NCBI GenBank assembly: GCA_028875225.1
Contig: JAPPFB010000011.1
Location: 62,001 to 126,000, forward strand
DNA: 64,000 bases
Source of the DNA: Chloroflexota bacterium
Lineage (GTDB): Bacteria; Chloroflexota; Dehalococcoidia; Bin125
Direction of reading: 5' to 3'
Shown: piece after piece, positions 44,348 to 45,416 of the stretch
Layout: each line of letters starts with the position of its first letter
Position numbering within the stretch: position 1 is the stretch's first letter
Notes under the pieces: model-generated
What the model saw: only the letters and a program-made list of their open reading frames with translations
Database searches by the model: none
What the model was told of the DNA's origin: nothing
Translations under genes and position numbers: made by a program

Positions 44348-45220
44348 CTATGGGCTGGGATCCAAGTAGAAGCGAATCGAAAGATCCGCGCTCTCGTACA
44401 CCTGGTTCTCTGGAATCTGGGTGTACATGCTCCAAAGCTCCCAGATATCAATCCATGTCTGATCCTGAGGACGTAGCTGCACCATGGGTAGGCCGGCTCC
44501 GTTCAACTGGTCCGGCGAAATCGACGCTTCGTGGACCTGTGGAACATCAATCAGAATCTCCTGCAGCTGGTCGGTCATCTGGAGTACGTCTTCGCGACTC
44601 CGTCCAGGACGGTTGGCAAGCGATTGCTCCAACTCCAGTTTCGTGTGGCTGAGCGACTCCCGGGCTTCCTGAGCCTCGAATGCGCTTCGGTTTTCCAAGA
44701 CCATTGCGTGAAACGATGCAAGCACTCCATCTGCAGCAGCCGCTGACTCAGCCCTTTCGAAAGCCCCGAGGATCGTCTTGGCGGGCTTGCGGCCGTAGTG
44801 CTCCAACCACATCTGCGGATCGATAGGACCCAAGTCGCTGGTCGGTCCCGTGACAATCTGGTCCGCACCAAGCAGAAGTAAGGTCCCAGCGCTCTTTGCC
44901 TCCCACGGCACGACTACGGTCAGATTCTCGCATCTCGTTCGCATTTGCCGGACAAGGCGAATCGCCGCACCGCCTTCGCCGCCTAAGGTGTTCAGGAACA
45001 AATGCAGAGACTTACAGTCGCCGATCTCAAGCAGTATGTCCTCGAGATTGACGGCGCTGAGAGTGAGTATCTCAGCATCTAGCACAATCGCGCGACAGTG
45101 GTAACGGCGCTCATATTCCTCCAGCGCCGCCTGTCGACTGTCTAAGGCTTCTTCCTCTTCGTCACCGACTTCTCCCGCTTCAAGTTCGTCATTCTTGTCA
45201 GCGCAGTCGGAGCCACTCAC
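44348..45220 (-). CDS. ClpP-like serine protease, SDH proteinase family
   Basis: 290-residue protein of the SDH (serine dehydrogenase) proteinase family (PF01972), relatives of ClpP and crotonases. The core is SLHLFLNTLGGEGGAAIRLV (glycine-rich oxyanion strand, 77-84) then VVPWEAKSAGTLLLLGAD with the probable nucleophile Ser110 and DLGPIDPQM. No signal peptide or transmembrane helix. The N-terminal 35 residues are very acidic. It starts with GTG in a GTGA overlap with a 50-residue basic protein, so the two are made together. Third-position GC is lower than in neighbours, hinting at transfer. Its target is unknown. Confidence 0.8.
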   Translation of the reverse strand: MSGSDCADKNDELEAGEVGDEEEEALDSRQAALEEYERRYHCRAIVLDAEILTLSAVNLEDILLEIGDCKSLHLFLNTLGGEGGAAIRLVRQMRTRCENLTVVVPWEAKSAGTLLLLGADQIVTGPTSDLGPIDPQMWLEHYGRKPAKTILGAFERAESAAAADGVLASFHAMVLENRSAFEAQEARESLSHTKLELEQSLANRPGRSREDVLQMTDQLQEILIDVPQVHEASISPDQLNGAGLPMVQLRPQDQTWIDIWELWSMYTQIPENQVYESADLSIRFYLDPSP

Positions 45221-45369
45221 GCGGCCTTCTGCTTCTTCTCCTTGCGCCGTCGGTCGTTCTCCAGCCGACTCTTGCGCAACTGCGGTGCGATTTGCTTTCT
45301 CCAGAAGGAGTCACTGAGACTTGGCGCCCGTGCTGGCGCCCTCGTTGGGCCTGTAGGTCGTTCAGCCAC
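45217..45369 (-). CDS. Small basic protein (50 residues) coupled to the ClpP-like protease
   Basis: Reads from GTG 45369 with a GGGAGAGA ribosome-binding site a few bases before it, to TGA at 45217-45219, which overlaps the protease GTG as GTGA. The protein starts MAERPTGPTRAPARAP, has a central SFWRKQIAPQLRKSRL and ends RRRKEKKQKAA; it is strongly positive, with no cysteines or membrane segment. No family recognised. The reverse charge of the protease N-terminus suggests direct contact, as an adaptor, inhibitor or nucleic-acid tether. It is easily missed by automatic length cut-offs. Confidence 0.65.
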   Translation of the reverse strand: MAERPTGPTRAPARAPSLSDSFWRKQIAPQLRKSRLENDRRRKEKKQKAA

Positions 45370-45416
45370 TGCTCTCTCCCTGCCTTGACTGTACCCCGGA
45401 AATGGCGCACAAGCCG

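Follow-up and report, generated by a model that had tools for sequence, protein, structure and literature searches.

Organisation of the gene pair

By sequence comparison, two coupled genes on the minus strand of the window, the whole 64,000-nucleotide stretch of Chloroflexota DNA that was analysed, are a real, conserved small-protein/protease unit of which no description was found in the searched libraries and papers. The pair is neither a multiubiquitin operon nor a recognised head-maturation gene nor a listed defence system. The first gene (45369..45217) runs from a GTG start to a TGA stop and encodes a basic protein of 50 residues (VAERPTGPTRAPARAPSLSDSFWRKQIAPQLRKSRLENDRRRKEKKQKAA), and the second (45220..44348; GTG start, TAG stop) encodes a predicted SDH-type ClpP-fold serine protease of 290 residues. 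Stop and start codons overlap in the sequence GTGA (45217..45220, minus strand). A Shine-Dalgarno-like GGGAGA is located ahead of the small gene at 45375..45380 on the same strand, and the leader aligns with that of the corresponding locus in G006, a genome of the same genus. The first-pass annotation had proposed the GTG-started frame with its ribosome-binding site and the overlap with the protease start, and all of these were found where it had placed them. Further upstream, the stretch CGGGGTACAGT (45388..45398, minus strand) is common to the G006 locus and may represent a -10-like element. A scan for consensus promoters gave no match, and terminator-like sites occurred close to the level of shuffled sequence. 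On the minus strand, the pair begins 47 bases beyond the end of a gene for an acyl-CoA dehydrogenase (ACAD).

The small protein of the window carries a net charge of +10, whereas the protease has a net charge of -28, of which -11 resides in the first 40 residues. The proposed contrast between a basic small protein and an acidic protease N-terminus was confirmed; the very acidic N-terminus was found in the window only and is not family-wide. The difference in third-position GC from the neighbouring genes, also proposed at first, holds only mildly. The small frame has a value of 0.667 and the protease one of 0.646, compared to 0.744 +/- 0.084 for the 43 long open reading frames of the window, 0.882 for the flanking ACAD gene and 0.697 for the DinB-like gene on the other side.

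The protease passed the gathering cut-off of Pfam family PF01972, SDH_protease (E 5e-11; 42.6 bits, cut-off 31.3), and remained far below the cut-off of the NCBIfam equivalog NF047768 (52.5 bits, cut-off 250). With both families it shares the serine-containing KSAGT stretch and the SDLGPIDPQ stretch, but it falls into a separate clade with a coupled small protein of its own. The candidate catalytic residues S110, D134, and H230 were invariant in 42 sequences, and K148 was conserved in at least 90% of them. A Ser-Lys dyad, which is used by NfeD/SppA, may thus be an alternative to Ser-Asp-His. A single-chain model of the protease, predicted with 41 relatives aligned, had a pLDDT of 91.7 and matched ClpP structures in Foldseek, and a profile search returned NfeD/PH1510-N and ClpP as the nearest solved relatives. 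Both have a ClpP-type fold like that predicted for the window protease; however, identity to ClpP is about 15%, and the window protease has a longer C-terminal part and no ATPase partner gene. In the protease tree, it was placed inside the clade of paired proteases (52 rows, SH-aLRT 99), on a long branch beside L003 and L004 from the same genus. Together, these data place the window protein, as a diverged member, among the SDH-type serine proteases with a ClpP fold. The open literature searched contains almost nothing on SDH-type proteases; the searches returned no specific result, and neither a function nor a partner was found there.

Conservation of the small protein beside the protease

Within the window's class, we identified five close relatives of the protease (36–42% identity to the window protein). 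In all five, a short frame runs into the beginning of the open protease frame and overlaps it, and the short frames have a motif in common. The overlaps are comparable (GTGA, ATGA, CTGA, and TTGAGTGA); at L003, no obvious standard start codon is present at this position. When genome contigs were scanned, the single sequence of the window protease found nothing, and an alignment of the subfamily was required. The subfamily search yielded 59 loci, 54 genomic and 5 viral, which are not all independent: five of the 54 genomic loci come from genomes that had been identified before, and three of the five viral ones are near-copies. The loci are distributed over at least six phyla (Actinomycetota, Gemmatimonadota, Acidobacteriota, Chloroflexota, Pseudomonadota, and Spirochaetota).

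By profile search, 47 of the 59 loci proved to have a homologue of the small protein immediately ahead of the protease; the profile was seeded from 22 upstream frames. As these frames were drawn from part of the same 59 loci, independent support comes from the specificity of the profile and from a search of 393 genomes of the class. At E≤1e-3, the profile gave no match beside other SDH proteases or at multiubiquitin loci. Among the 393 genomes, it returned five strong matches (E≤1e-9), which correspond to the five non-window genomes that hold the close protease relatives, and three weak ones. Outside the 47 loci, variant-looking upstream frames are present at L090, L103, L111, L115, L121, and L123. 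All three frame relations between the small gene and the protease gene occur, and dN/dS of the small gene ranged from about 0.1 to 0.35 in the pairs that could be computed, as expected for a protein family under purifying selection. The frequent upstream position, the varying frame relations, and the dN/dS values show that the small frame is more than a chance occurrence. The first-pass annotation had described the pair as a two-gene module and had named absence of the short frame and its overlap beside homologous proteases as the result that would refute this; instead, we found the pair conserved and coupled across phyla.

Pairwise distances of the small protein and the protease were correlated (Mantel rho 0.54, with 0 of 2000 permutations as high), a correlation that is expected from co-inheritance of the partners alone. 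The net charges of the partners did not covary (rho -0.09). Within the family, the small protein was positively charged in 42 of 44 cases, and the protease cores were all negative. Across 50 loci, neither a recurrent third gene nor an ATPase partner was observed, indicating that the module is self-contained. In a single genome, G132 (L169:1453-1656), a small protein (IDPDWWERIETARRI..; profile E 2.1e-5) may be an orphan relative of the family, with no protease within about 1.5 kb.

Members of the small-protein family range from about 50 to 70 residues, with a median length of 57 residues and a median net charge of +5. A proline-rich N-terminus is followed by the consensus DW..+I..AK.ARE.G+..R.GKP..F, in which the W, A, A, and R columns are conserved, and ribosome-binding sites are present upstream. 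The protein is predicted to form one helix. Searches against Pfam, NCBIfam, PADLOC, PHROGs, and PDB chains gave no convincing match. A ubiquitin-like (Pup-like) tag was also considered and was rejected, as the C-terminus is unconserved and only a helix is predicted.

Turnover, phage carriage and gene surroundings

The junction between the ACAD and DinB-like genes was readable in 14 members of the genus, among them the genome of the window. It contains the pair in three (G000, G006, and G009), another gene in two (G001 and G007), and is compact (19–90 bases) in nine. In G010, the ACAD protein is 99% identical to that of the window, yet the pair is absent. In G006 and G009, the ACAD proteins are about 94% identical to that of the window and the proteases 40–42%. 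The distribution at the junction and these different identities indicate that the pair is gained and lost at one fixed site, where it diverges rapidly; this turnover occurs either by replacement or by rapid evolution. Phages carry the pair as well. On one phage contig it is located shortly upstream of terminase and portal genes, and on a second, a provirus, it lies between tail-region genes and an integrase. Junction distribution, the conserved flanks beside diverged proteases, and phage carriage all lend support to the lateral acquisition that had been suggested for the pair. The other gene in the junction, observed at L135 (G001), L146 (G007), and L002, encodes a protein that begins with MRDGMDAALEIVHRTGPEYGPG and presumably resembles questin oxidase-like proteins. 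The ACAD/DinB junction looks like a variable site.

A scan of 130 neighbouring frames, many of them shadow frames, gave a few matches to defence genes. A full drmD gene (DISARM) is located directly downstream at L103, an HmaB/DUF1156-type methylase and a PLD-helicase occur on either side at L076, a type IIG enzyme is encoded nearby at L097, and a phage contig with the pair also carries a C5 methylase. Such neighbours occur in only a few of about 45 loci, an uncontrolled count, and many loci sit among ordinary metabolic genes; the defence surroundings are no more than suggestive of a defence role.

In 11 of about 51 loci the protease is broken, and in 10 of these 11 the small gene is intact. 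Nonsense codons, frameshifts, a deletion, or an insertion interrupt the protease at L091, L117, L119, L120, L097, L108, L122, and L126; among these, the small frame is detectable at all loci except L126. A broken protease beside an intact small gene is a weak signature of toxicity, because the protease has five times the length of the small protein and many of the cases come from metagenome-assembled genomes, in which errors may contribute.

Possible function and relation to known systems

The reading that we favour, with the chances evenly balanced, is that of a compact, self-contained mobile module: the small protein would bind the protease and control it, and the whole would probably be a unit of the defence, exclusion, or addiction type. 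The coupled order with the small gene first, the contrast in charge, the conservation of helix and tail, and the parallel divergence of the two proteins suggest that the small protein is a dedicated binding and controlling partner. Because the pair is sporadic and mobile, is carried by phages, and often has a broken protease, we incline to the view that the small protein controls a protease which is harmful under certain conditions. The small protein would be translated in tandem, just before the protease, and would dock on the acidic protease via its Trp-containing helix and its basic GKP..F tail. Once docked, it would control the protease, which would act only after a trigger disturbs the complex, and the module would probably serve the host or its prophage as a unit for defence, exclusion, or addiction. 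Binding, control of activity, the trigger, and a role in defence or toxicity are what we infer from these features. Opposite charges and a conserved helix would fit binding, equally as an inhibitor, an activator, or an adaptor; the first-pass annotation had named adaptor and inhibitor. Toxin-antitoxin and two-gene phage defence modules have a small gene first and a coupled effector, and are sporadic, mobile, and phage-carried. The pair likewise is a sporadic, mobile, phage-borne two-gene unit with the small gene ahead of a coupled, larger putative effector; no PADLOC-DB model matches either protein. A more far-reaching version is tentative and somewhat doubtful: a new, widespread, and self-contained system for phage defence or addiction, whose ClpP-fold serine protease, held by a dedicated basic helical partner, would be unleashed on infection, and which would have spread by phages and other mobile elements across at least six phyla.

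Alternatively, the small protein might be an adaptor or activator that delivers substrates to a housekeeping or stress protease, the pair being an accessory of metabolism or quality control. Substrate delivery to an acidic ClpP-fold protease is conceivable for a basic helix with a conserved GKP..F tail, and the metabolic surroundings of many loci, as well as the position of the window pair 47 bp behind the ACAD gene, are consistent with such a role. However, sporadic distribution, phage carriage, and fast divergence are unusual for housekeeping factors, and no ATPase partner recurs alongside; we regard this role as unlikely. It is less likely still that the family is real elsewhere but the frame in the window is in decay or arose by chance. 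In the family profile, the window frame scored 0.8–3.4 bits, which is at chance level (equalled by about 5–22% of shuffles); the window protease sits on a very long branch, and broken proteases are frequent across the family. On the other hand, the frame is open over 50 codons with a ribosome-binding site, a GTG start, and the GTGA overlap, and the protease frame is intact with every catalytic candidate kept. At the DNA level, the leader, ribosome-binding site, and start align with those of G006 with a score of 46, matched by 1 of 500 shuffles. In a start-anchored, ungapped comparison of the small proteins of the window and G006, VA+R, AP, and W...I occur at identical offsets (p 0.007); comparisons with G009 and G015 found no similarity. 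The window gene also lies directly upstream of, and is coupled to, a protease of the clade. Position, protease tree, and the similarity of leader and start to the same-genus G006 tie the window frame to the family; we regard it as a diverged, though not proven, counterpart of the coupled small proteins, its similarity to G006 being modest.

Two known kinds of system were also weighed against control of the protease by its partner. A head-maturation protease that remained in the chromosome from a prophage, together with a small scaffold-like partner, seems very unlikely. Weak matches to models of ClpP-related head maturation proteases and the phage contig with terminase and portal genes agree with such an origin. 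However, the NCBIfam scores are about 12–27 of 120 bits (17.7 for the window protease), far under the cut-off; the best-matching PHROG has no assigned function; the pair of the other provirus lies between tail-region genes and an integrase; and capsid genes are neither near the window pair nor recurrent at other loci. Even more improbable is that the protease is an orphan of multiubiquitin conjugation operons, with the small protein replacing the ubiquitin-like part. The best plasmid matches of a close relative are the last genes of multiubiquitin-E2-E1-DUF6527 operons, but in the protease tree a strongly supported branch separates their proteases from the paired clade, which led us to reject this origin. 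In addition, the window's genome gave no Multi_ubiq match (a weak negative, as the control genomes also gave none), and the small protein has neither a conserved C-terminal glycine nor a beta-grasp but a single predicted helix. The operons share with our pair a related protease, in terminal position, and differ in protease clade, in their five-gene conjugation organisation, and in having no protein of the small family. On the plasmids of L067, L068, L069, and L072, the SDH-type protease that ends these operons is annotated as 'hypothetical protein' (at L069, E2 and DUF6527 are not listed), and a similar but fragmented set is present on a Microbacterium plasmid (L070). The protease at the end of the operons may process or deconjugate in these systems. 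In a keyword search, Iyer 2006 (PMC1779556) gave no mention of ClpP.

Related SDH proteases also occur beside ORFs of 56–71 residues near the temperate-phage repressor in lambdoid E. coli prophages and in Klebsiella phage ST13-OXA48phi12.4. By eye, these small ORFs look unrelated in sequence to the family, and in E. coli the small gene lies downstream. An E. coli plasmid record (L071:3974-5047) contains a lambdoid prophage in which the protease and a 56-residue ORF adjoin the repressor gene, the site of exclusion genes such as rex; of 5426 E. coli genomes, 19 have this type of pair, which is nearly full length in 17. In the Klebsiella phage (L163:2194-3391), a 71-residue ORF overlaps the gene of an SDH-type 'SppA protein' beside the repressor, representing another small-gene/protease pair whose small protein is apparently unrelated to the family.

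The small proteins of the pair form a family that is absent from the curated libraries searched, and a dedicated, conserved partner with a sharp motif provides a concrete handle on the SDH-type proteases.
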